Shown: piece by piece, positions 466-21,142 of the stretch
Position numbering within the stretch: position 1 is the stretch's first letter
How the letters are laid out: every line of letters begins with the position of its first letter
Virus record (IMG/VR): IMGVR_UViG_3300031707_000214
Coordinates: 1-21,491 of that record
Length of the DNA: 21,491 nt
DNA from: a virus
Strand: one strand, 5' to 3'
Notes under the pieces: model-generated
Database searches by the model: none
What the model was told of the DNA's origin: nothing
The model's input: the letters and a program-made list of their open reading frames with translations, nothing else
Program-made: the position numbers and the translations under genes

Positions 466-805
466 TTTGTTCATCCCGCTCGTGATCACTTAGCCACAAA
501 AGGTACTCTTGCAGTGCCCTGCATATTGCTAGATCTCTAGCCGTACCATTCGGAAGAACTCTTGTATCCCAACATTCCATACATATCTCTACATAAGGAG
601 AGGCTTCTTTTAACCAATCAAGAAAATCATCAAAATGATCCTCGTCAATTCCTGGTAAGTAGTAGGATGCAGGGATCTCCGGTCCATCTAAAACAGAGTG
701 CCGTTCTTCCCCGATCTGTTTCAAACAAATATCACATTGAATTGATTTTGCCTCTATGTCCCGCATTGCTAACAATGATTTGGCTAATCTCCTACCCATT
801 GGCAT
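458..805 (-). CDS. Small hypothetical protein with two Cys pairs
   Basis: I do not recognise the family. The 115-residue reading contains C-D-I-C at residues 24-27 and C-M-E-C at 75-78, which could bind one zinc ion. The C-terminus is acidic. It lies between two homing endonuclease genes on the same strand and overlaps the end of the upstream GIY-YIG gene by 14 bases and the start of the downstream one by 8 bases. The start is uncertain: an AGGAG sequence lies inside the reading frame after the ATG at 805, so a start at a later codon (for example the ATG of residue 14) is possible. It may be a passenger gene of the homing cluster or a phage gene into which the neighbours inserted. Confidence 0.55.
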   Translation of the reverse strand: MPMGRRLAKSLLAMRDIEAKSIQCDICLKQIGEERHSVLDGPEIPASYYLPGIDEDHFDDFLDWLKEASPYVEICMECWDTRVLPNGTARDLAICRALQEYLLWLSDHERDEQNG

Positions 806-2402
806 ATTCTATTACATATTTACCTAGTAACTTTAGTCTATCTGTTTTCTTAGTCAAGACTCTACTAACAGTGTTACAAGTAACATTAAAATACGCAGCT
901 ACGGCTTTAACACTTTCAAATTCTCTGCCGTCCACTAGCACTTTTTTGCTTTGGCACGCTCTCTCCTCTGGCTTCCTTACTTCACCATCTAAATAACAAA
1001 ACAGCACACCTTTTACTGGTTTATTGATTCTTATCCCTTTGCATATAGCTGAATCTGATATTTTAAGAAATTCGGCGGCTTCTTTTATAGATGCGAATTC
1101 CTTACCTTCGGCTGTGATTAGCTTTCTACTTATTTTTTTTATAGCCGCTTTTATTGTGTTTTCTCTTCCAAAGGAAAAACCACTCCCACCCTCTTTTTTC
1201 CATTTTTCTAAAAGTTTAGGGCGGTATAACCCAGTAAAAACGCAATTCAGCCATTGAGTATTTAAATTGAATTTTTTTGCAATTTCATCTACTCCCATTT
1301 GGGTCGCTCTTAACTTGAAACATTCTAAAAGATTTTCATCGGTTATTTTTATTCTTATATCTGGACGAATATCTCCATGAACTTTTTCCCAAGATTCTTT
1401 TAGTTCTGGCTTTCGTATTCCTTTAATGGATTCATGTATAAGCGTTTTGCTGATACCTAACTTCTCAGTTATCTCAATATAGGATATTCCTCTAGAAACA
1501 AGTTCAAATATCTGGTATATGACATCATCAGGAATAGTCCATCCTTCATATTCTTCTACCCGTAAATTGTACCCCCTAGGAACATAGCAATCATATTTTT
1601 GTGTTAGCGTGCTTTCTAGGTTATTAAGTTCTAAACGGCTGTAAGCGGTACCCACAATCTCTAAAGAGAAATTTTTAGGTTCATACTTACGGATGGCTGC
1701 ATGGAATGGTAATGCGCTTCCGCGACGGGAATCACTTAAATGTTGGGCATATCTATAGGATACTTTGCGTATGGTTTGCCCTACATATGCTTTATTAGTA
1801 ATTTTGTTAGTAACTTTATACACCCAACCAAATATGGGAAAAGTTGTTTCGTCTTTTATTTTAAATCTAAATTTAAGTTTAGGTTTCTCTTCTATACGCT
1901 TCAAATTCAAAAACTGAGCATATTCCTTTATAGGAATCCGAGCTTTTTTTGCCTTTTGCCAAATACTCTTTTTATGGAAGCGGTGACCTTCCGTGTCTAG
2001 ATAATGAAATGAAGGTTCCGTCATACCGATTAAAGTAAAATTTGAGGCTTTGTAAATTGTGCCTCTATGACCCTCGGTGGGATCTGCGTAAGTGATTACA
2101 CCAGTGACTTTATCCTCAATTTTTTTTATCTGCCGCAAGCAAGAAGCCAGAAAAAAACTTTCGGTATTAGGTACTGTACCATCTTCCACATAGAAACGTA
2201 AAAGCTCTAGATCATTAGGATGAAGCTTTTGGGACTGAATTCTTGTTGGAAACCCAAATATTGCCACACCTAAGCGGCAATCCCCATCTAAGAGGTGAAA
2301 GCAATACTCAGCTAAAAGCGGTGCTGATTGCGTATAATGATGCTCTGCAATGTACTTGCGCACTTCTGTCGTATATTCATTCATTTTTATTGTGTAATGC
2401 AT
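792..2402 (-). CDS. GIY-YIG homing endonuclease fused to a GNAT/Mom-like N-terminal domain
   Basis: The 536-residue protein begins at the ATG at 2402, chosen because AAGGAGG lies 4 bases upstream; a longer reading from a TTG lies across that site. Residues about 35-145 resemble the GNAT-like Mom DNA-modification fold, with 'YADPTEGHRGTIYKASNF' near 105-122. Residues about 190-290 form a GIY-YIG nuclease domain: W-V-Y at 193-195, Y-V-G-Q-T at 206-210, conserved R and H around 215-221, the metal-binding Glu near 262 and G-Y-N-L near 277-280. Residues 290-400 hold helix-turn-helix units. Two NUMOD1-like DNA-binding segments follow ('GKEFASIKEAAEFL' near 433 and 'GREFESVKAVAAYF' near 492). It probably cuts DNA at a specific phage site to promote its own spread. 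It lies just downstream of the split capsid gene. The N-terminal fusion is the unusual part. Confidence 0.85.
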   Translation of the reverse strand: MHYTIKMNEYTTEVRKYIAEHHYTQSAPLLAEYCFHLLDGDCRLGVAIFGFPTRIQSQKLHPNDLELLRFYVEDGTVPNTESFFLASCLRQIKKIEDKVTGVITYADPTEGHRGTIYKASNFTLIGMTEPSFHYLDTEGHRFHKKSIWQKAKKARIPIKEYAQFLNLKRIEEKPKLKFRFKIKDETTFPIFGWVYKVTNKITNKAYVGQTIRKVSYRYAQHLSDSRRGSALPFHAAIRKYEPKNFSLEIVGTAYSRLELNNLESTLTQKYDCYVPRGYNLRVEEYEGWTIPDDVIYQIFELVSRGISYIEITEKLGISKTLIHESIKGIRKPELKESWEKVHGDIRPDIRIKITDENLLECFKLRATQMGVDEIAKKFNLNTQWLNCVFTGLYRPKLLEKWKKEGGSGFSFGRENTIKAAIKKISRKLITAEGKEFASIKEAAEFLKISDSAICKGIRINKPVKGVLFCYLDGEVRKPEERACQSKKVLVDGREFESVKAVAAYFNVTCNTVSRVLTKKTDRLKLLGKYVIEYANG

Positions 2403-2419
2403 GAATCCTCCTTCACCAC

Positions 2420-2448
2420 ACAATAGATCGTCGCCGCGAAAATGTAAA
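2420..2448 (-). promoter_or_regulatory. Candidate sigma70-type promoter for the GIY-YIG gene
   Basis: On the minus strand TTTACA (2448-2443) and TATTGT (2425-2420) are separated by 17 bases, matching 5/6 and 4/6 of the sigma70 consensus. Initiation about 6-7 bases downstream would give a very short leader beginning at the SD of the GIY-YIG gene. It lies downstream of the capsid terminator, so it would give the endonuclease its own transcript. It is a consensus match only. Confidence 0.35.
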
Positions 2449-2554: not shown

Positions 2555-2942
2555 TTAACTAATACGCTGACCTCTAACTACACTGCGCGCGTTGACCACG
2601 GCGTGGCTAACAATTGCGGTACCGAACCATCCCCTGACAGGGCGACCAACAACTGCTTGGTTTACACTGTCAACAGTCAACGGTTTACGCTCCATCAGTA
2701 CGCCCAAAGCCTTCGGCGTGCCAAGGAAGTAAACTTCGCCTGGATTTAGAACTTGCAAGTTCTCTTCGCGGAAACCGTCAGTGAGCAACTGGACACCGAA
2801 GAAAGAACCGAGGTTACCTTCCATGATGACTTGATGCTTAGAAACTGGATCATAATAACTCGAAAATTCAGTATCGGTAAGAATATCGTTCCACAGGTCC
2901 ACGGCAATAAGAGCATGTGCAACTGGAATTGTCCAACGAGCA
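2555..2942 (-). CDS. Major capsid protein, exon 2 (C-terminal part)
   Basis: This exon encodes the C-terminal 128 residues of the probable capsid protein. Features resembling the C-terminal half of HK97-fold capsid proteins are 'IPVAHALIAVDLWNDI', a 'LNPGEVYFLGTPKALG' strand-turn region, 'RGWFGTAIVSHAVVNAR' and a final basic strand. An internal GTG at 2902 would give a free-standing 115-residue reading, but the coding frame continues upstream to the intron boundary without a stop and without an SD, so this is an exon. The predicted start at 2942 joins GT from exon 1 to T, making Val243, followed by Ala-Arg-Trp-Thr-Ile-Pro-Val. The spliced protein would have 371 residues. The capsid name is family recognition by eye; the split is seen directly. 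Confidence 0.72.
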
Positions 2943-4014
2943 CGTTGGATCGTTAGTTTCCTAACGGACGGACTATATCTTCAACCTCTTTAGGGGAGGT
3001 TGCTTCGCACTCAGGAGAGAATTCCCCTGTAAGGCTTGTCCATAGCGTATTTGCTTTAGGACTTGCCAGAATGACACTCAAAGCTTCGGATAATCTGTCT
3101 TTACTGTAGTCATCTTCCCAAAGAATTATTACATTATGCTCTTTGAGAAACTTCTGTTGATTTGCATGATCAAACATCCAAATATCAGAAGCTGATTTAT
3201 TACGTAGAGGGTGTGTATCTGTAGCTTTCCAAAGTCTAGGATCACAATGCCAAAAGGTTCCGTAAGTTTCAATTACTGTGTTGATTTCTTTAACGAAGAA
3301 GTCAACGCTGCGACCTGCAATAACCACTTGCTTTTCAAAACTTAAAGATAAGTCTTTAGCACAAGCTTTTTCTATCCAGGTGTCTCTTTTACCAAATGTC
3401 TTACGGATATTAGTTTTATAGATGTCTAGAAGTTTTAGTTTCTGTTCTTCTGGACGATCTTGCCACTTTCTTTTGAATTCCTCGCACCTTCTTAGATACT
3501 CGGATTCCGGCATGTCTTTCCACCACTTTGCTCGACGACTGCACTCTATAGAATACTCTTCTTCAGAAAGATTGCTCCACCACGCTTTAACTTTTTCACC
3601 GTGGGCAGACCAGTCACTACCTTGTGTGGCTCTTGCTTTTTTGGCGTGCGTAATTCTTTCTTCTTTAGACGTTTTCTCTAGATAGCCTTTGCGGATCGCT
3701 GCGTTCCTTTCTTTACGCTGCTCTACCGTCATGGACGACCAAAAGGCTTTAACCTTAAGGCTTCTTGCCTTATTGATTTCTTCTTTTGTTTTCGTCTCAG
3801 TCATCGTTCATTCCTTGTCTAGTCTCTGAACCTTCTGCGGCGTTTCCACCGGAGCTTGGCTGCTGATTACCCAATTCTTGGCTTTTTTATAACTTTCAAG
3901 TCTATCCTCTCGGATTGCTTTGTAGTAGTCAAGACTCTAAGGGCTTCCAGCAATTCACGAAGTTGTTATCATCAATATTACTATTGAAGGCAGACTGCTC
4001 AAGCGGCTTTTGCC
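2943..4014 (-). ncRNA. Group I intron in the capsid gene
   Basis: The minus strand between the two capsid exons shows a group I catalytic core. TTGGGTAATCAGCAGCCAAGC lies at 3874-3854 (P/Q region, P4-P5), a GAAA-capped P6-type hairpin at 3851-3838, GGTTCAGAGACTA at 3832-3820 (R, 5' strand of P7) and AGATATAGTCC at 2980-2970 (S, 3' strand of P7). A perfect P9-like hairpin CGTTAG-GAAA-CTAACG lies at 2966-2951. P1 can form at 4018-4001: AAGTGGC pairs with GCCGCTT around an AAAA loop, putting a U-G wobble at the exon end (4015). A possible P10 pairs GGCA (4014-4011) with TGCT at the start of exon 2 (2942-2939). The predicted intron ends in G at 2943. Splicing restores the capsid frame. Exact ends are inferred. 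Confidence 0.85.
2953..3804 (-). CDS. Intron-encoded Vsr-like (EDxHD) homing endonuclease
   Basis: This 283-residue protein is encoded inside the intron, in the P8 region between the two P7 strands. Residues about 10-125 carry repeated, basic, Trp-rich NUMOD3-like DNA-binding segments (for example F-W-S-S-M-T near 21-26 and W-W-S-N-L-S near 75-80). Residues about 155-235 resemble very-short-patch-repair nucleases of the EDxHD homing family: V-D-F-F at 167-170, I-E-T-Y-G at 178-182, F-W-H-C-D-P at 184-189, a W-M-F-D segment at 209-212 and W-E-D near 229-231. It probably cuts intron-less capsid genes and so drives intron homing. AAGGA lies 8 bases upstream of the ATG. Its last codons encode the 3' strand of P7 and its TAA (2955-2953) falls in the P9 stem, so coding and ribozyme sequences overlap. 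Confidence 0.82.
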   Translation of the reverse strand: MTETKTKEEINKARSLKVKAFWSSMTVEQRKERNAAIRKGYLEKTSKEERITHAKKARATQGSDWSAHGEKVKAWWSNLSEEEYSIECSRRAKWWKDMPESEYLRRCEEFKRKWQDRPEEQKLKLLDIYKTNIRKTFGKRDTWIEKACAKDLSLSFEKQVVIAGRSVDFFVKEINTVIETYGTFWHCDPRLWKATDTHPLRNKSASDIWMFDHANQQKFLKEHNVIILWEDDYSKDRLSEALSVILASPKANTLWTSLTGEFSPECEATSPKEVEDIVRPLGN

Positions 4015-4742
4015 ACTTCGTTAATCTGCGTTCTCATCGCTTGGAACACGCTAGGCGTGAAAGCGTTGAAGAACACCAGTTCGTTGTACGTAGGTGCCGA
4101 AGCATCAAGGAGAGCCTTGGTGCGTAGATCTTCTTCACGAAGGATCTGCTCAAGACCATCATTGTATTTGTGCTCAAGCAAGTCCGTATCAGCCAATTCC
4201 AGTTCTAAGTCATCGATTTCAATGCGGAAAGTCAAATACGCATCTGGTGGATGCACGTAGCTTTGACGAACAACCGAAGCAACAACAGTAGGACTGGTGG
4301 TTGCAATGTAATAGCCGATAACATCTTTACGCCGAATTGCGATACGTGCAACGTCGCCTCTTTTGATTGGTTTGAAACCAAGAATTTTCCGGGTAAAACC
4401 TTCACGACCGAGTGCTTCGTAGATTTCTTCGGTAACGGTTTCACCGAGGGCTTGCCACTTAACGCCGGTCTTATCATTCAGTGCGTCCGAGAGAGCGGCA
4501 GCGCGGGCTTCCACCACATCGCGACGAGCTTCCGTAGACATCATGTCGTCATCATTACGAGCAATGACGCCATTTTTGACACCTTCATACAAAGAGCCAA
4601 TCTTACGGATAAGGTCTTGCTTATCGTAAGCATCAATTTCTGCACCGTTGGCAAGGCGTTGATTACTGCCTTTAGGACGGAATTCCGTCACTGGAATTTT
4701 AGGTTGGTAACTAGCACCAACCCTTCCTCTAGAAAGTTTCAT
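4015..4742 (-). CDS. Major capsid protein, exon 1 (N-terminal part)
   Basis: This exon encodes 242 residues plus two bases of codon 243. AGGAG lies 8 bases before the ATG at 4742. The protein has a basic, flexible N-terminus (first 30 residues), an acidic helical segment near 30-95, and a beta-rich core with 'RGDVARIAIRRKDVIGYYIA' near 128-147. This order is compatible with an HK97-fold capsid subunit. The uninterrupted frame runs past the splice point and stops at a TGA at 4001-3999, which would give a useless 247-residue product. Removal of the intron joins it to the exon at 2942-2555. No separate scaffold or protease gene is visible in the window. The assignment rests mainly on the exon 2 motifs and on this gene being the target of an intron. 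Confidence 0.7.
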
Positions 4743-4814: not shown

Positions 4815-4969
4815 AAAAACGTCAGAGCTTTCCCGGTGACGATTACTCGTCTAATTAGTTCTTTTGTGATAACTTCCCGTAGGGAGCGGTATCGATATTA
4901 ATTAATAGAGGTTTGGGATACGCCGCGACTCTCAAGCACTTAATTACGTACTATTTAACCTATGTAGTG

Positions 4970-6493
4970 ATGTTGGTATTAATTTTGACTAAAGAAGAAA
5001 TTTTAAAACTCCATGCTGAGTATCTTTCCGGCATGAGTATTCCTGAACTTGGTATTAAATATAATTTAGTAACTACTTCTATACAGAGGTGGTTTAAAAA
5101 GAATAATTTACCTTTAAAGTCTAAAGAGCAGAAGAATCTTGAAAAGAGTATTAAGACTAAGAAGACGGTATTAGAGCGTTATGGTGTAGAAAATGTGGGG
5201 AATGCTTTTAGGGATAAGATGCGGTCCACTATGCTTGAGCGTTATGGCGCGGCGCATCCTGCCCATGTCCAAGAGATCTGGGATAGAAAACAAAAGACGG
5301 TATTAGAGCGTTACGGTTCGGAGTATTTGTTTCAAACGGAAAAGTTTAAAGCGGATGTGAAAAGATATAACCTAGATGTGTATGGTGTGGAGTTCAATTC
5401 TCAGGTTCCACATTTTAAGTTTAAGTCTGCCCAAGGTAAGATTTCTGCGCGTAAGAATAGGTTAGCGACTTACCTACGGGATAATGGCTATGATCTGCTG
5501 GAAGCATACGAAGGCAATCGTATGTCTGATGCTGAGGGTAAACATATAGCTTGGCGCACTTATAATATTAGGCATAAATGTGGCAATGTATTTGTGGATG
5601 ATGTTTTTATGACGCCGAGGTGTCCTAAATGTTACCCACTTAATAAGTCGGTTCAGGAAATAGCTTATGCTGATTATATTAGATCGTTAGGCTTTGAGGT
5701 ATTGTCTGGTGACAGGAATGTTATAAAACCGTTCGAGTTAGATATGTATCTTCCTAAGGAAAAAATAGCGTTTGAATACAATGGTGTATTTTACCATCGC
5801 CTTAAAAAGGATTGCGTTAAAAAAACCGATTTAGCTCAAGAGGCGGGGGTAAAAGTATATCACATATGGGAATTTCAAAATGTTGAAATAGTTAAGAGTC
5901 GTATATGTAGTGTGCTAGGAATTTACCAGGAGCGGATAGATGCAAGAAAAACTAAATTTGAAGTGATTTCTTCTGCTGAAGGCAGAGCATTCTGTTTGGC
6001 GAACCATCTCCAAGGTGAAGCTAAAAGCTTCCTATATTGTGGCTTAAAGCGCAATAACGAGTTACTAGCTGTTGTATGCTTTAGGACCTTAAGAGGGTTG
6101 ATAGATATAGCCAGATTCTGCGTGAAGAAGCATACGCTTATACGTGGCGGGTTTTCTAAACTATTAAAGAACAGTCTTCCTTTATTGCCCCCAGGTGATA
6201 TCCAAACCTATGCTGATAGGGATTGGACTCCTGCTTGGGAGGATAGTGTATACGTTAAAGCTGGCTTTTCTTTTGAGCATGATGCAGGACCCATGTTATC
6301 TTTTTATGCTAAAAAGGAACGCAGGTGGTATCCACGTCAAAATTATCAGCTTCACAAAATAAAAGATCTAGTAGCTAAGCATCGTGGGCAGGGGTTAAGT
6401 GCTGAGAAGATGCTGGAGAAAGCGGATATTATGGCTATTTGGAATAGTGGGAATTTTAGGTTTAAATTGACGCGGGGATCTTCTAATGACTAA
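4970..6493 (+). CDS. Free-standing homing endonuclease (HTH, ERYG repeats, Vsr-like nuclease, GNAT-like C-terminus)
   Basis: The protein has 507 residues from the ATG at 4970; an in-frame TTG at 4913 would add 19. Neither has a well-placed SD, so the start is uncertain. In order it shows an HTH (about 6-50), three ERYG segments (about 69-72, 90-93, 113-116), possible zinc ligands H-K-C near 202-204 and C-P-K-C near 218-221, and a Vsr/PD-(D/E)XK-like nuclease with E-L-D-M-Y-L at 256-261, F-E-Y-N-G-V-F-Y-H at 268-276 and a W-E pair at 300-301. The C-terminal region (about 330-465) has the 'Y-A-D-R-D-W' and 'GF...P..SFYAKK' pattern of GNAT-like domains at the end of phage homing endonucleases. 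It probably makes site-specific breaks in related phages. It runs divergently from the capsid gene. Its stop overlaps the next gene by 8 bases. Confidence 0.8.
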   Translation: MLVLILTKEEILKLHAEYLSGMSIPELGIKYNLVTTSIQRWFKKNNLPLKSKEQKNLEKSIKTKKTVLERYGVENVGNAFRDKMRSTMLERYGAAHPAHVQEIWDRKQKTVLERYGSEYLFQTEKFKADVKRYNLDVYGVEFNSQVPHFKFKSAQGKISARKNRLATYLRDNGYDLLEAYEGNRMSDAEGKHIAWRTYNIRHKCGNVFVDDVFMTPRCPKCYPLNKSVQEIAYADYIRSLGFEVLSGDRNVIKPFELDMYLPKEKIAFEYNGVFYHRLKKDCVKKTDLAQEAGVKVYHIWEFQNVEIVKSRICSVLGIYQERIDARKTKFEVISSAEGRAFCLANHLQGEAKSFLYCGLKRNNELLAVVCFRTLRGLIDIARFCVKKHTLIRGGFSKLLKNSLPLLPPGDIQTYADRDWTPAWEDSVYVKAGFSFEHDAGPMLSFYAKKERRWYPRQNYQLHKIKDLVAKHRGQGLSAEKMLEKADIMAIWNSGNFRFKLTRGSSND

Positions 6494-9354: not shown

Positions 9355-9875
9355 CTCGGAAGATAAGACAATATTTCCGCCTCTCCTCTTTTTTTAGCTA
9401 TACCAACTCGGTGATAACCATCTACGATTCTATATCTACCCTTATAAATTTCGGAAGGTATAATTATAATGGGTGGAGCTTCCGTTTTTAAATCATTATA
9501 CTTTTTAAGTATGGCTTTAGAATCAGGGGAAGAAACATTACTTAAATCAAAATAAAGTTTGTTTATGGGTATTTTTTTTAATTCCCATTTACCATATGTT
9601 TCAATATCTAATATTTGATTATCCAATTCTCTTTCAGGTGACGTGTCTTCTAAGTGTTGGATTACATCTTCGCTTGTGTAGAACTTAGACGCCAATACTT
9701 TTTGGATGAATAACATTTTAAAGAATCTAGGATCAAAGATGAGCGAAAACATCGTTTTGGGTCTTGCAATCCCACAACAAGACAAGTCGGATGACGCTGG
9801 AGATAAAATTCCCAGACCTCCGTCACCTCGGAGACCGCGCAGACTAAACACAAAACAATCACAGCTCTGCCTCAC
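9351..9875 (-). CDS. ParB-like domain protein
   Basis: The C-terminal part resembles a ParB/sulfiredoxin-type domain: 'KIPINKLYFD' near 101-110, 'PPIIIIPSEIYKGRYRIVDG' near 134-153 and the typical D-G-Y-H-R at 152-156 followed by 'GIAKKRGEAEI'. Such small phage ParB-like proteins are often annotated as nucleases or DNA-binding proteins; no activity is shown here. The longest reading uses a GTG at 9875 that overlaps the upstream stop as GTGA, the same 4-base overlap seen elsewhere in this series. The first 50 residues are low-quality in appearance (Gly/Cys-rich), so an internal ATG (residue 42 or 54) is a real alternative. The stop codon shares the palindrome TTAA with the convergent 2H gene's stop. 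Confidence 0.6.
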   Translation of the reverse strand: MRQSCDCFVFSLRGLRGDGGLGILSPASSDLSCCGIARPKTMFSLIFDPRFFKMLFIQKVLASKFYTSEDVIQHLEDTSPERELDNQILDIETYGKWELKKIPINKLYFDLSNVSSPDSKAILKKYNDLKTEAPPIIIIPSEIYKGRYRIVDGYHRVGIAKKRGEAEILSYLPS

Positions 9876-10135
9876 ATTGAATTCTTCTTGTAAAGCTCCT
9901 GGAGCTTGACCTCTAGCAGAGCATCAAGATCAACCAGCTCCTTAGCATCGAAGTACACATCCATCAGGTACATCAGGCTCTCTCCGTTGTCCCCGTCCCC
10001 GCCTGACTTGAAGCAGAACGAGTCCCCATGGAGCAGGAAGTCGATTTTACTGATAGCCTTGAAAATATCTTCCGACTGCGGATGATGATCCACCCCAGTC
10101 TCCCAACGCTTATTGATATCCGTTTCGGTTTTCAT
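9872..10135 (-). CDS. Duplicated small phage protein, copy 1
   Basis: This 87-residue protein is a close paralogue of the one at 20033-19803. Both share 'RWETGVDHHPQS', 'KSGGDGDNGESLMYLMDVYF' and 'DAK'. After that the C-termini differ: this copy ends in a Leu-rich acidic helix and a basic tail. H-H-P and the D/G-rich loop are the conserved features; I recall similar proteins in other large phages but no function. The ATG overlaps the upstream stop as ATGA (10132-10135), so it is translationally coupled to the membrane/collagen-like protein. Confidence 0.75.
   Translation of the reverse strand: MKTETDINKRWETGVDHHPQSEDIFKAISKIDFLLHGDSFCFKSGGDGDNGESLMYLMDVYFDAKELVDLDALLEVKLQELYKKNSM
9940..10135 (-). 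repeat. Copy 1 of a 196-base dispersed duplication
   Basis: This stretch aligns without gaps to 19838-20033 in the same orientation. It includes an exact shared run of more than 40 bases near its left end (from 9940). It covers most of the small paralogous gene. Confidence 0.75.
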
Positions 10136-10630: not shown

Positions 10631-12082
10631 TTAAACCCCCTGCATTAAGTGGTTAGCCAAGGTACGAATCTCCTGGAAGGTATACTCTTTGGTCAACCTG
10701 CCATCACGGAAAACTTCCTGTAACAAATCGCTGTTAAGTGGCTTAAGCTCCATCAGTACGCCCATAGCTTCCAGTCGTTCTGCTTCACAGTAAGGAACTG
10801 TCTTGATGATTCCGCCTTCGTTGACTACCGCAAAACGTCCCTTCTTAGAAGTCTTACCTGGATCGGTAACTGGATCTTTAAATACATCCCGCCACTCTCC
10901 GTCCACACATACCGCCGAGCATTTATAGGCAAATTTATGCGTGTCCCTATTCACCTTCTGAAGTAAAGCTCCACCCATACCGAACACAATATTGTCCGCC
11001 GCCCATCTGTGATCTTTCATCGTTTTCAAAATCGTTTGGATCATCTCATAATCAACGCCGTCACCTTGCAACACTCTTATTTTGGGGTGAAGCGTATTGT
11101 ACCCATGGGCATTGGTAGTGTACCCAAAAATACCACCTAAAATGGTTACAGCAATACTTACCATCTCAGGCGGGTATCCGCTATCCAACCGAAAAACAAA
11201 TACGCCGTCCCTTGCTAATATCTTCTCTTTAAGATTTTTACCTAGTAAATTTTTTAAAGCATTAAAGACATCATAAGAATCCACGACAACAGATAAGATT
11301 CCTGTAGGAAATTTATCAATCATCTTTTCATAAAAATCCTGCTCGTGATCTTTACCGTGTGCAGTGGTCGGACTATGCTCCGTGGCTACCACGGAAAAGC
11401 CTAGCATCTCATCCGTATTATACACCTCTTGTGTGAAGGGGATGGCTATCGTTGTGTCTGTCCCTTTAGAGAACAGTAAGGCAGCGCTCCCGCCTATCCC
11501 TGCCGTCTCTGCCGAAGACACACCTCTGTAGGCGAAATTATGGAGCTGAAACTCACTACCCTCAGTACCTACACCAGTGGCTTCTCTAAAAGAGAGGATA
11601 AGCTTATGGATATTGTAAGCCAGCGTGGCAATGGTAATAGGGTACCAAATCTGCGATAAGAAGGTCTCAACATACCCAGGAAGCCAAAAGCAGTCGGGGT
11701 CGGTATTCTCCACCGTAAAAAGGACGCGGTGCTTAGGTACTAACATCCCCTCGGGCAGCGCCTTAATCGATAGAGGCAGACGACCTTTGTGCTTGGTTAA
11801 AATATGCTCCCAACCTGCTTTGTTGAAAACATCCTGACCAAAATGCTGAGACGAAAATTTCTCTAAGTATGCAATCTTTTCTTTAGTAACTATCTCGCCA
11901 GCCAAGACTTTAGCGAAATACTGCAACCCGAAAAATAGCGTCTCGTCAAATTGATGACCGCCGCGAGATTCCTCGTAGTAGTACGTATGACTAGTTCCTT
12001 CGGGGAACATCTTATGGTGTGTCATCTTATATGAATCGGCAAGTAAGGTTTGACGGAAAAAATTGGTATTAATAAAATTCAT
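10631..12082 (-). CDS. nadV: Nicotinamide phosphoribosyltransferase
   Basis: The enzyme joins nicotinamide to phosphoribosyl pyrophosphate to make nicotinamide mononucleotide (NMN). The 483-residue length matches the family (human NAMPT has 491). Residues aligned with the human active site are present: Y18, F183 and R186 in 'HNFAYRGVSSAETAGIG', D209 in K-G-T-D-T, H236 in 'VVATEHSPTTAHGKDHE', D268 in V-D-S-Y-D, and R298/D300 in F-R-L-D-S-G. 'LQGDGVD' and the final 'FKDPVTDPGKTSKKGR' region are also typical. No truncation is seen. The ATG overlaps the stop of the NMN adenylyltransferase gene as ATGA, so the two consecutive pathway enzymes are coupled. In phages this pair rebuilds NAD+ and has been shown to counter NAD+-depleting defences. 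Confidence 0.95.
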   Translation of the reverse strand: MNFINTNFFRQTLLADSYKMTHHKMFPEGTSHTYYYEESRGGHQFDETLFFGLQYFAKVLAGEIVTKEKIAYLEKFSSQHFGQDVFNKAGWEHILTKHKGRLPLSIKALPEGMLVPKHRVLFTVENTDPDCFWLPGYVETFLSQIWYPITIATLAYNIHKLILSFREATGVGTEGSEFQLHNFAYRGVSSAETAGIGGSAALLFSKGTDTTIAIPFTQEVYNTDEMLGFSVVATEHSPTTAHGKDHEQDFYEKMIDKFPTGILSVVVDSYDVFNALKNLLGKNLKEKILARDGVFVFRLDSGYPPEMVSIAVTILGGIFGYTTNAHGYNTLHPKIRVLQGDGVDYEMIQTILKTMKDHRWAADNIVFGMGGALLQKVNRDTHKFAYKCSAVCVDGEWRDVFKDPVTDPGKTSKKGRFAVVNEGGIIKTVPYCEAERLEAMGVLMELKPLNSDLLQEVFRDGRLTKEYTFQEIRTLANHLMQGV

Positions 12083-13251
12083 TTTTTGCTCCCCATAGTA
12101 AAGTATTGAATGATAGAAAAATGATCTTCAAACATCCGTTCTTGCATTCTAAATATATCCGCTATGGAAAACCATTTAGCCTCAGTAGCATCGTCCGCCC
12201 CCCTTATATAAGGGAAGTCACCTTCTACCGGCAATTGAAAATGAAAAGCGGTTGTTATAACCCTACCCCTAGTGGACCTTAGAGGATGACCAAAAGTATG
12301 TTCGCCAGCAAAACACTTAATCAACTCTTTGCGTGTCTCTTCGTATTGATCGTATATGTTTAAATTAGCTTTGCGGAACAAGTTAAGTTTAGTCTCCTCA
12401 TTGAGTTCTCTTAACGCCGCATCAAACTGCTCTTCAAATTCATTTAAGTGACCTCCAGGTAATGCCCATTGCCCAATACCAGGATTAACACCGCGCTTTA
12501 TAAGTAAGATATGAGCACTCTTCATTACTACACTGTCTACCGTGTTTTCAATGATAGGATAACAGTAAGCCTCCTTATCCGCTTTCTTTTTTAAATTAGA
12601 CAAATGCTCCGACACTAAGCTAGCACACCTAGCCGTCTCGTCTTCTTTAAACCGCTCAAGAAACGCCACAACAGGTGGGGGAAGGTGTTCCCGCCAACTG
12701 TAACTAGACGCCCTTTCACGAGCCTCATTGAAGGTTTTAGATGCTAGGTATTTCTCCTTCACCGCAGAGAAATCCAGCATTTCTACAAAGTAGGAGTTGC
12801 GAATGTCCGTGGCAGAAATTCCTTTAGAAAAACTTGCCGTATCAATAAACTCCCACTGCGGAAACCAATTCAAATATGCGGAAGTTCCGTCTTTTTTATA
12901 CCCTATAATACCGATCTTTAAGTCTTCATAATTGTCATACTCTTGCTCTAAGATATCCCTTACCTTAGTGTGTACCTCAGCTAACCAAGCCTCATCTTGG
13001 TAAGGATGATCACTCACGGCGGTAAAACGCATCCTAGCTAAATCCTCTTCGTCAAAACAGGATTTAACCATCTCTTTGCGCTCAGAAGACTTCCATGGAT
13101 TATAAGTATTGACCGCTTGTAGATCTGACCCAAAGACAGGGATCACGAGATTACCTAAAGCTAACGCTCGGTCATAAATTTTCTTGTGGGCTTTGTGGAA
13201 TGGCTGGGACCTATGGAGAAAAACAATAGCATCAAACGCATATTCACGCAT
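12079..13251 (-). CDS. nadM: Bifunctional NMN adenylyltransferase / Nudix hydrolase
   Basis: The N-terminal domain makes NAD+ from NMN and ATP; the C-terminal Nudix domain of this family usually hydrolyses ADP-ribose. The ATG at 13251 is chosen because AGAGGG lies 7 bases upstream; an ATG at 13320 would add 23 residues without an SD. From that start (390 residues), the nucleotidyltransferase signature 'SQPFHKAH' is at 15-22 and I-S-A-T-D-I-R at 145-151. The Nudix box is at 267-289: G-x5-E273-x7-R281-E-L-x-E285-E286-T-K-L. The usual Gly near the end is Lys, and a non-Gly residue there is, as I recall, normal in NadM-type fusions. The KVP40 homologue is called NatV. The gene overlaps nadV by 4 bases. 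Together they make NAD+ from nicotinamide. Confidence 0.92.
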   Translation of the reverse strand: MREYAFDAIVFLHRSQPFHKAHKKIYDRALALGNLVIPVFGSDLQAVNTYNPWKSSERKEMVKSCFDEEDLARMRFTAVSDHPYQDEAWLAEVHTKVRDILEQEYDNYEDLKIGIIGYKKDGTSAYLNWFPQWEFIDTASFSKGISATDIRNSYFVEMLDFSAVKEKYLASKTFNEARERASSYSWREHLPPPVVAFLERFKEDETARCASLVSEHLSNLKKKADKEAYCYPIIENTVDSVVMKSAHILLIKRGVNPGIGQWALPGGHLNEFEEQFDAALRELNEETKLNLFRKANLNIYDQYEETRKELIKCFAGEHTFGHPLRSTRGRVITTAFHFQLPVEGDFPYIRGADDATEAKWFSIADIFRMQERMFEDHFSIIQYFTMGSKK

Positions 13252-13329
13252 CTTATTACCCTCTCTGGGTTTCTTGATCTCGGCGTTTGTCCCTCTCTGG
13301 AACAATTTTCTCGCCTGCATCGTTATTAG

Positions 13330-19728: not shown

Positions 19729-19806
19729 TCACTCCCGAAACATTTCCCATATATCAACGATGATGAGCACAACAAGCCATACCGGCATTTCGATTAGGAA
19801 CTTCAT
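19729..19806 (-). CDS. Tiny membrane peptide, 25 residues
   Basis: The ATG overlaps the stop of the duplicated small gene as ATGA. The peptide is almost entirely one membrane helix, 'MPVWLVVLIIVDIW', with charged ends. It lies just before the fibre genes. Small hydrophobic phage peptides of this kind can act in lysis or membrane association, but nothing here shows which. Another 12-codon frame follows at its end and is too short to call. Confidence 0.45.
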   Translation of the reverse strand: MKFLIEMPVWLVVLIIVDIWEMFRE

Positions 19807-20033
19807 TTTGGTAGAAGGTCCTCCAATTCCCCGTTATCCTTAGCATCGAAGTACACATCCATCAGGTACATCAGGCTCTCGCCGTTGTCTCCGTCCCCAC
19901 CCGACTTGAAATAAAACGAGTCTCCATTAAGCCTGAAGTCGATTTCTGCGATAGCCTTGAAAATCTCTTGTGACTGAGGATGGTGATCCACCCCAGTCTC
20001 CCAACGCTCATTGATATCTGTTTTGGTCTTCAT
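19803..20033 (-). CDS. Duplicated small phage protein, copy 2
   Basis: The 76-residue protein is the paralogue of the gene at 10135-9872. The ATG at 20033 is chosen because it aligns with the start of copy 1; a TTG at 20045 overlaps the upstream stop as TTGA and would add four residues. It shares 'RWETGVDHHPQS' and the 'SGGDGDNGESLMYLMDVYF' core with copy 1, then ends with a short acidic tail. Most differences from copy 1 look like single substitutions with no indel over 196 bases, suggesting a fairly recent duplication. Function unknown. Confidence 0.75.
   Translation of the reverse strand: MKTKTDINERWETGVDHHPQSQEIFKAIAEIDFRLNGDSFYFKSGGDGDNGESLMYLMDVYFDAKDNGELEDLLPK
19838..20033 (-). repeat. 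Copy 2 of a 196-base dispersed duplication
   Basis: This is the gap-free counterpart of 9940-10135, in the same orientation about 9.9 kb away. The long exact stretches could support recombination that deletes or duplicates the intervening NAD+ and other genes. Confidence 0.75.
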
Positions 20034-20041
20034 AAAAACTT

Positions 20042-21142
20042 TCAAAAAGTAACTTTAGGTGGATTCTTCTCAGCCAGATCTGGAATTCTCCCGAGCAGTC
20101 TAGAAGAATATTTCTCCAATTTGCTTCGTTTATCGTAGAGTAGATCTGGTGCATGCGTGGTCTCAGACACAAGCTTAAGATAAACGTCTAATAGGTTTAA
20201 ATTAGATGCTGCCCCCATCATCCATCGTTTAGATGGTTTAGGTTCTAAGGTTTTAATCTCGTATTTATCTACTAGCTTTTTCCAGCCGAAGAATTCCTCA
20301 AAGCGTTTCTCCGTTTCCCTATCCTCTTTATCTACCTTCAGTGTTTTAACAAGTCTTTGCTTGGTTTCTTTTACTTCTCTTAAAGAAGCATTTATACCTT
20401 TAAGTTTCTGCAAATAACCGTCAAGTTCAAGCCAACCCGCCGAATCAAAATTCTCGATGATAGAAACCAAATCTCCGGCGAACGTAGACGACGATGTAGA
20501 ATAATGTTCCGGTTTGAAAGGCAGCAAGATAACCGCCATATCATCACAACGCACGGCTACCTGATAGGTATGTGGTTGTTCATAACCGTATAGGGAGTAA
20601 GCGAAGACATGACCAAAGTCATATTCTGAATTGTCCGCAGCTAGTTTCCCGCGCTTAGTGATAAATCCATAACGTAAATAAGCATCGTCCTCAGACCTGG
20701 CAGTCAAGGTAGCCTTAGACGTTTCACTAATCTTTAAGATATCCTTATCCATTTCGCAAACCGCATGAATACTCTCTAAGAGATAGTCTTTAGTCGTAAT
20801 AGAAAGTACAGTATTCTCTCTAGTATCACAAACCACCACCGCTGGTTCATGCACGTAAGAAATACTCATCTGCTTTTGCAGATATGTTAAAACCTCATAA
20901 TTATGATCGTCTTTAAGACGCTTAGCAAAAGACAAAGGCACCTGGATAACCCGACACAGCGATGCAAAACCCTTATCCGTTAAAGGACGTTTTTCACCAC
21001 TAGGAAAAATAAGCACTAGCTCGTCCTCCCCCTCTTGCCCAGATTGGAAATCTAAAGAAAGAGTGGTGAGATCAAATTCTTGCTGCGAAATATAACTATA
21101 TTGCCCATAGGATAATGGTAAAACTGTGTCCGCAAGTGACAT
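20042..21142 (-). CDS. Hypothetical protein, 366 residues (possibly DUF932-like)
   Basis: GGGGG lies about 5 bases before the ATG. Residues about 40-80 ('FPSGEKRPLTDKGFASLCRV' then 'IQVPLSFAKRL') and the following 'VLSITTKDYLLESIHAVCEM' recall the layout of DUF932 phage/plasmid proteins: a 'dropped into a shallow cysteine-helix, then VP' segment, then a beta segment with S-x-x-Y. This is a weak, remembered resemblance. The C-terminal third is helical and highly charged (about 245-310), probably coiled coil. There is no membrane segment. It is the first gene of the second minus-strand series and overlaps the TTG of the next by 4 bases. Confidence 0.6.
   Translation of the reverse strand: MSLADTVLPLSYGQYSYISQQEFDLTTLSLDFQSGQEGEDELVLIFPSGEKRPLTDKGFASLCRVIQVPLSFAKRLKDDHNYEVLTYLQKQMSISYVHEPAVVVCDTRENTVLSITTKDYLLESIHAVCEMDKDILKISETSKATLTARSEDDAYLRYGFITKRGKLAADNSEYDFGHVFAYSLYGYEQPHTYQVAVRCDDMAVILLPFKPEHYSTSSSTFAGDLVSIIENFDSAGWLELDGYLQKLKGINASLREVKETKQRLVKTLKVDKEDRETEKRFEEFFGWKKLVDKYEIKTLEPKPSKRWMMGAASNLNLLDVYLKLVSETTHAPDLLYDKRSKLEKYSSRLLGRIPDLAEKNPPKVTF

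Follow-up and report, generated by a model that had tools for sequence, protein, structure and literature searches.

A group I intron with an EDxHD-type endonuclease, proposed to be mobile, in the major capsid gene of a tailed phage

The 21,491-nucleotide viral DNA analysed here (the window) comes from a tailed phage whose major capsid gene very probably carries a mobile group I intron with an EDxHD-type endonuclease; we put the probability of this reading at about 0.9. The host is probably a jumbo phage, and the intron is known from one metagenomic contig. Ordinary annotation would yield two broken capsid genes and a hypothetical protein. The original prediction placed the gene correctly at 2555-4742, within which the intron proper occupies 4023-2943:

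4024..4742 (-): major capsid gene exon 1, by match to phrog_2522 and homologues L001, L002, L003 and L006
2943..4023 (-): group I intron of 1081 nt, with UAACG at its start and a terminal G, by partial RF00028 matches and the junction taken from intron-less homologues
2555..2942 (-): major capsid gene exon 2, starting UGCUCGUUGG, by match to phrog_2522 and L005

Capsid exons and the splice junction

As listed, the minus-strand capsid frames run from 4742 to 3999 (247 aa) and from 2902 to 2555 (115 aa). Both match the major head protein family phrog_2522, in adjacent stretches of its 318 positions (12-203 and 217-317; E-values of 4e-24 and 2.5e-18), and the joined protein gives a single match over positions 12-317 (E = 1.1e-52), which bears out the proposal that the two in-line frames are one capsid gene. 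The capsid assignment came from PHROGs; a Pfam search returned no capsid family. Exon 1 begins with the ATG at 4742, and the exon 2 product is 81% identical to L005 over 115 aa. The suggested comparison with HK97-type capsids was also borne out, in that a profile of five capsids matches a solved major capsid chain (6wkk) over residues 79-362, across the junction, with an E-value of 4.5e-8. Judged by these alignments, the spliced product is an HK97-type major capsid protein.

Intron-less capsid relatives, with frames unbroken at the insertion site, are present in the viral contigs L001, L002, L003, L006 and L095. The first four align with the joined protein over its full length, at 74%, 70%, 68% and 43% identity, respectively, and L095 covers residues 87-368. 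The insertion point reads TQIARWTIP in L001, L002 and L003 and TQIQQWGNP in L006, and at the DNA level L001 (CAGATCGCTCGTTGG) is almost identical to the spliced window (CAGATTGCTCGTTGG). Agreement with the homologous proteins, together with a final U in the 5' exon and a final G in the intron, gives the register 4742-4024 / 4023-2943 / 2942-2555, in which the final base of exon 1 is the U of a U.G pair in P1. In the predicted spliced DNA, the exon 1 end ...ACGCAGAT is joined to the exon 2 start TGCTCGTTGG. By comparison with the homologues, the product is 368 aa long with the junction ...TQI-ARWTIP....

The ribozyme core and the position of the ORF

A group I core had been predicted on the minus strand, and the proposed Rfam check located it as two partial matches to RF00028 (Intron_gpI): one of 44 bits (E = 1.3e-9) at 4024-3796, the other of 23.8 bits (E = 0.0015) at 2983-2952. 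Neither reaches the gathering cut-off of 50 bits alone, and an Rfam scan of the window at the standard cut-off reported no intron, presumably owing to the ORF, some 0.8 kb of which splits the core into two halves. The helices are as follows:

4024..4029 (-): P1 exon strand GCAGAU, 6/6 pairs with GUCUGC, the splice-site pair being U.G
4001..4018 (-): P1-loop hairpin AAGUGGC-AAAA-GCCGCUU, by sequence pairing
3996..4000 (-): P10 strand GAGCA, immediately 5' of the P1 guide, 5/5 pairs with exon-2 UGCUC (2942-2938)
3990..3995 (-): P1 internal guide strand GUCUGC, by pairing with GCAGAU
3956..3962 (-): P3 5' strand CUUCGUG, by covariation with P3' in seven phage introns
3861..3952 (-): P4-P5 domain (P4 UGCUG / CAGCA), by Rfam alignment and pairing
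3820..3824 (-): P7 5' strand GACUA, pairing with UAGUC at 2975-2971
3003..3009 (-): P3 3' strand UGCGAAG, within the ORF, by covariation
2982..3002 (-): P8 hairpin CAACCUC-CCCUAAA-GAGGUUG, within the ORF, 7/7 Watson-Crick pairs
2971..2975 (-): P7 3' strand UAGUC, within the ORF, from the second Rfam match
2951..2966 (-): P9 hairpin CGUUAG-GAAA-CUAACG, from the second Rfam match, with the ORF stop codon in its 3' strand

With a core of P3, P4, P7, P8 and P9, the U.G pair, P10 and the terminal G, the element is by sequence a group I intron. P9 is capped by GAAA, as had been claimed. Splicing in the cell would be expected to proceed as self-splicing with external guanosine. The 3' splice site also lies inside a perfect 7-bp hairpin, UCCAACG-UGCU-CGUUGGA (window 2949-2932, minus strand), of a kind found in 52 of 20,000 shuffles; its loop belongs to the P10 strand, with which the hairpin might compete.

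The 3' layout was read from the closest phage introns placed side by side, in which the P3' strand is followed by the P8 hairpin, AAGAUAUAGUC (P7') and P9. Across seven phage introns, the P3 strands, which were picked by hand, pair with their own partners at 46 of 49 positions, a further intron (DW2) having no clean P3 in the same register. When 5' and 3' strands were re-paired, only one of the 5040 combinations reached 46/49, namely the true pairing. A P3' beside the ORF start (CAAGGAAU, from the Rfam alignment) was dropped, since it is mismatched and 3009-3003 pairs 7/7 and covaries. The 836-nt interval holds one other 7/7 site for P3', with fewer Watson-Crick pairs than 3009-3003.

On this alignment, the ORF sits between the P7 5' strand and P3', outside P8. 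It had been placed in P8, which is instead an intact 7-bp hairpin inside the 3' end of the ORF, preceded by P3'; a P8-like hairpin arises in 10 of 20,000 shuffles. The ORF wholly contains P3', P8 and P7' and includes most of P9. It occupies the interval where the nearest introns carry P7.1/P7.2-type sequence, an IA2 feature. Intron ORFs overlapping the core form a known class, and their expression is under tight control (PMC3984707).

The intron-encoded endonuclease

The reading frame and its putative translation signal are these:

3812..3816 (-): Shine-Dalgarno-like AAGGA, by sequence, 7 nt ahead of the ORF start codon
2953..3804 (-): intron-encoded endonuclease, intact 283-aa ORF, by ORF list, profile, fold and motif evidence

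The protein comprises an N-terminal helical region (residues ~1-125) and a Vsr/EDxHD-like nuclease (~126-246). Single-sequence searches gave a weak Vsr signal. The whole endonuclease found no relative when searched directly against viral contigs, nor did the nuclease domain in bacterial genomes. A four-sequence alignment with relatives from Lak phages and a Salicola phage matched Vsr 1cw0 (E = 2.5e-4); with a broader profile the Vsr match was weaker (E = 0.06). The four-sequence nuclease alignment retrieved 75 phage-contig relatives with the shared motif, DUF723-type proteins among them. The motif residues are E145, D168, H186 and D188, whose active-site roles we take to be those of EDxHD/Vsr enzymes; the first three align with the E, D and H of Vsr. 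In a 43-sequence alignment, D168, G182, H186, W229 and E230 are invariant (window numbering), and D188, present here, is N in many relatives.

With an alignment of these 43 diverged sequences as its basis, AlphaFold modelled the nuclease domain at a pLDDT of 82.8; a single-sequence model of the full-length protein (pLDDT 45) was discarded. The top four rows of a Foldseek search with the nuclease model are Vsr and I-Bth0305I 3r3p (1vsr, E = 8e-4; 3r3p, E = 5e-3; prob 1.00), and a VIA comparison gave Z of 9.9 for Vsr and 9.4 for 3r3p. By this model the nuclease domain belongs to the Vsr/EDxHD group, with fold and key residues intact, and the Vsr-like, EDxHD-type assignment made in the original prediction therefore stands. 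Since the score against Pfam PF03852 (Vsr mismatch endonuclease) is 15.2 bits, below the curated cut-off of 27, the endonuclease is a relative of Vsr by fold, separate from the Vsr repair enzymes. The N-terminal 125 residues gave no family match; we assume by analogy that this helical region binds DNA. In Lak phage A1, a related Vsr-like endonuclease (L016, 1775-2893) is followed by a frame (3224-4198) whose start resembles an intein C-terminus (THTFFANDILAHNS), a sequence arrangement which suggests that this nuclease group may also ride on inteins.

Mobility, precedents and neighbouring genes

The endonuclease was looked for in the records of capsid relatives and not found in three, including two of more than 220 kb (236 and 223 kb). 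Rfam detected no group I intron in five capsid-relative records, a test that would miss an intron split like that of the window, so the intact capsid frames of the relatives are the stronger evidence for absence. Neither Rfam at the gathering cut-off in 40 contigs with related endonucleases nor a pattern scan of endonuclease-relative loci found a group I intron, and split introns could escape both. The patchy presence, as read from these sequences, fits a mobile element.

In the mechanism we propose, P1 and P10 would align the exons on the ribozyme in the transcript, and splicing would join ...CAGAU to UGCUC..., restoring the 368-residue capsid. The endonuclease would be translated from its own ribosome-binding site and most likely cuts, at the insertion site or close to it, the capsid genes of co-infecting relatives that lack the intron, after which repair would copy the intron into the intron-less allele. 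Translation to the end of the ORF should hinder splicing of the same molecule, because approximately the last 19 codons (from 3009) double as P3', P8, P7' and the larger part of P9. If the enzyme cuts capsid genes in mixed infections, it could in addition serve as interference, by analogy with jumbo phage PhiPA3, whose intron endonuclease is reported to interfere with a co-infecting phage (PMC11620839). The PhiPA3 system has a different nuclease and target gene; interference of this sort would be the likely ecological effect of the window enzyme.

Three other readings bear on this proposal. It is unlikely that the intron splices while its endonuclease is inactive or never homing, whether passively inherited or serving as a maturase alone. 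In its favour, the N-terminal region does not resemble that of relatives, which is of the zinc-module or DUF7487 type; however, the full-length ORF, the Shine-Dalgarno-like site and the retained family-invariant D, G, H, W and E speak against inactivity, and the patchy occurrence in relatives points to movement. A capsid gene merely broken by an insert, in a defective phage or through an assembly artefact, is extremely improbable: the single contig has no second sighting, but an exact in-frame join with intact P1, P10, P3, P7, P8 and P9 and an intact ORF is unexpected from decay or misassembly.

The remaining alternative keeps the intron and moves its 5' splice site, probably to just after AAGU in the P1-loop hairpin (~4015), with AAGU/GCUU as P1. 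This would join ...AACGAAGT to TGCTCG and give the 371 residues originally predicted, with an extra N-E-V. The hairpin AAGUGGC-AAAA-GCCGCUU does exist, is probably the helix that had been taken for P1, and offers a U.G pair too. We nevertheless consider this site very unlikely. The bases 5' of its guide do not pair with the start of exon 2, whereas GAGCA beside GUCUGC pairs 5/5 with UGCUC. N-E-V is missing from all four aligned intron-less homologues, which are continuous at the site, as anticipated, in a register other than that of the 371-residue form. They read TQI-ARW or TQI-QQW and leave no room for the extra residues, so the junction lies at TQI-ARW, three codons from the predicted one, and the product has 368 residues. 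We thus retain the mobile intron spliced at 4024/4023.

The intron type, the endonuclease type and this sort of target gene were each known before, and the window holds a well-resolved new example rather than a new kind of system. Mycobacteriophage LittleE has a probable group I intron in its major capsid gene with an endonuclease gene inside, and RT-PCR showed splicing; its authors also cite the capsid intron of lactococcal phage Tuc2009 (PMC3706429). LittleE shares with the window a capsid-gene intron with an endonuclease, U as the last base of exon 1 and G as that of the intron, but its endonuclease is of the HNH type and on the opposite strand, and its capsid is of another lineage. The major capsid (MCP) genes of some crAss-like phages typically carry group I introns (PMC7886860). 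The intron of crAss-like cr118_1 (L008), one of the nearest matches at the DNA level, shares the P3'-P8-P7' layout of the window; unlike the window intron, it lacks an ORF, and its host phage is unrelated. In the Manatee Spring phage MW202615 (L007), the MCP gene likewise has group I introns and an endonuclease ORF extending into P7', but there are two introns and the HNH-like ORF is located in P8, between CAAUAAG and CUUAUUG. The MW202615 capsid gene appears split by these two introns at L007 1469-3711, the annotated capsid being the last exon alone.

Among the endonucleases of phage introns, the EDxHD enzymes form an established family (PMC3943268). The window enzyme shares its catalytic-domain fold with I-Bth0305I, a phage group I intron endonuclease and the EDxHD type structure (PMC3943268; PDB 3r3p), and differs from it in sequence (~15% identity), host gene and N-terminal region. 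Recent work has also found EDxHD/Vsr-like endonucleases in group II introns of phages, where a C-terminal Vsr-like nuclease likewise follows a modular N-terminus (PMC12350094); those modules are CapR/DUF723-like, whereas the window enzyme has a helical N-terminus and resides in a group I intron. A literature search of partial coverage turned up no report that pairs a capsid-gene intron with an EDxHD enzyme. Capsid introns with endonucleases are already published, which narrows the claim that the pairing deserves description. With its junction corrected, its ORF placed by covariation and its nuclease assigned as Vsr-like, the element offers a clean test case for phage intron finding, and also for competition of co-infecting phages over a virion gene.

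Two free-standing genes flank the capsid gene:

792..2423 (-): homing endonuclease-like gene with a Mom-like domain, GIY-YIG and NUMOD/HTH repeats, by Pfam and PHROGs
4913..6493 (+): second homing endonuclease-like gene (phrog_3339, E = 2.1e-77)

Within 6.5 kb of the capsid gene, the window thus has four homing-endonuclease-like genes, at 1-489, 792-2423, 2953-3804 and 4913-6493. In three phages, the gene immediately downstream of the capsid gene encodes the Mom-like/GIY-YIG/HTH-NUMOD fusion (window 792-2423, minus strand; L002 7274-9271; L006 6440-8197); the three proteins are 29-35% identical, and Pfam Mom is significant in those of the window and L006. A HEARO RNA (RF02033, 127.7 bits) is found near this gene at L002 9527-9742, and the L003 capsid gene is also adjoined by a phrog_3339-type gene, 38% identical to 4913-6493. 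It is possible, if doubtful, that the capsid gene, an essential virion gene, is in this phage group a battleground on which several unrelated homing endonucleases converge (the intronic Vsr/EDxHD enzyme, the downstream Mom-like and GIY-YIG fusion and the upstream phrog_3339 type), with the intronic enzyme so integrated into its ribozyme that its synthesis and that of the capsid are mutually exclusive on each transcript.

Elsewhere in the window, adjacent nicotinamide phosphoribosyltransferase and cytidyltransferase/Nudix genes (10631-12082 and 12079-13320, minus strand) are probably an NAD salvage pair. Two similar small proteins (ETGVDHHPQS...FKSGGDGDNGESLMYLMDVYFDAK) are encoded about 10 kb apart, at 9872-10135 and 19803-20045 (minus strand).
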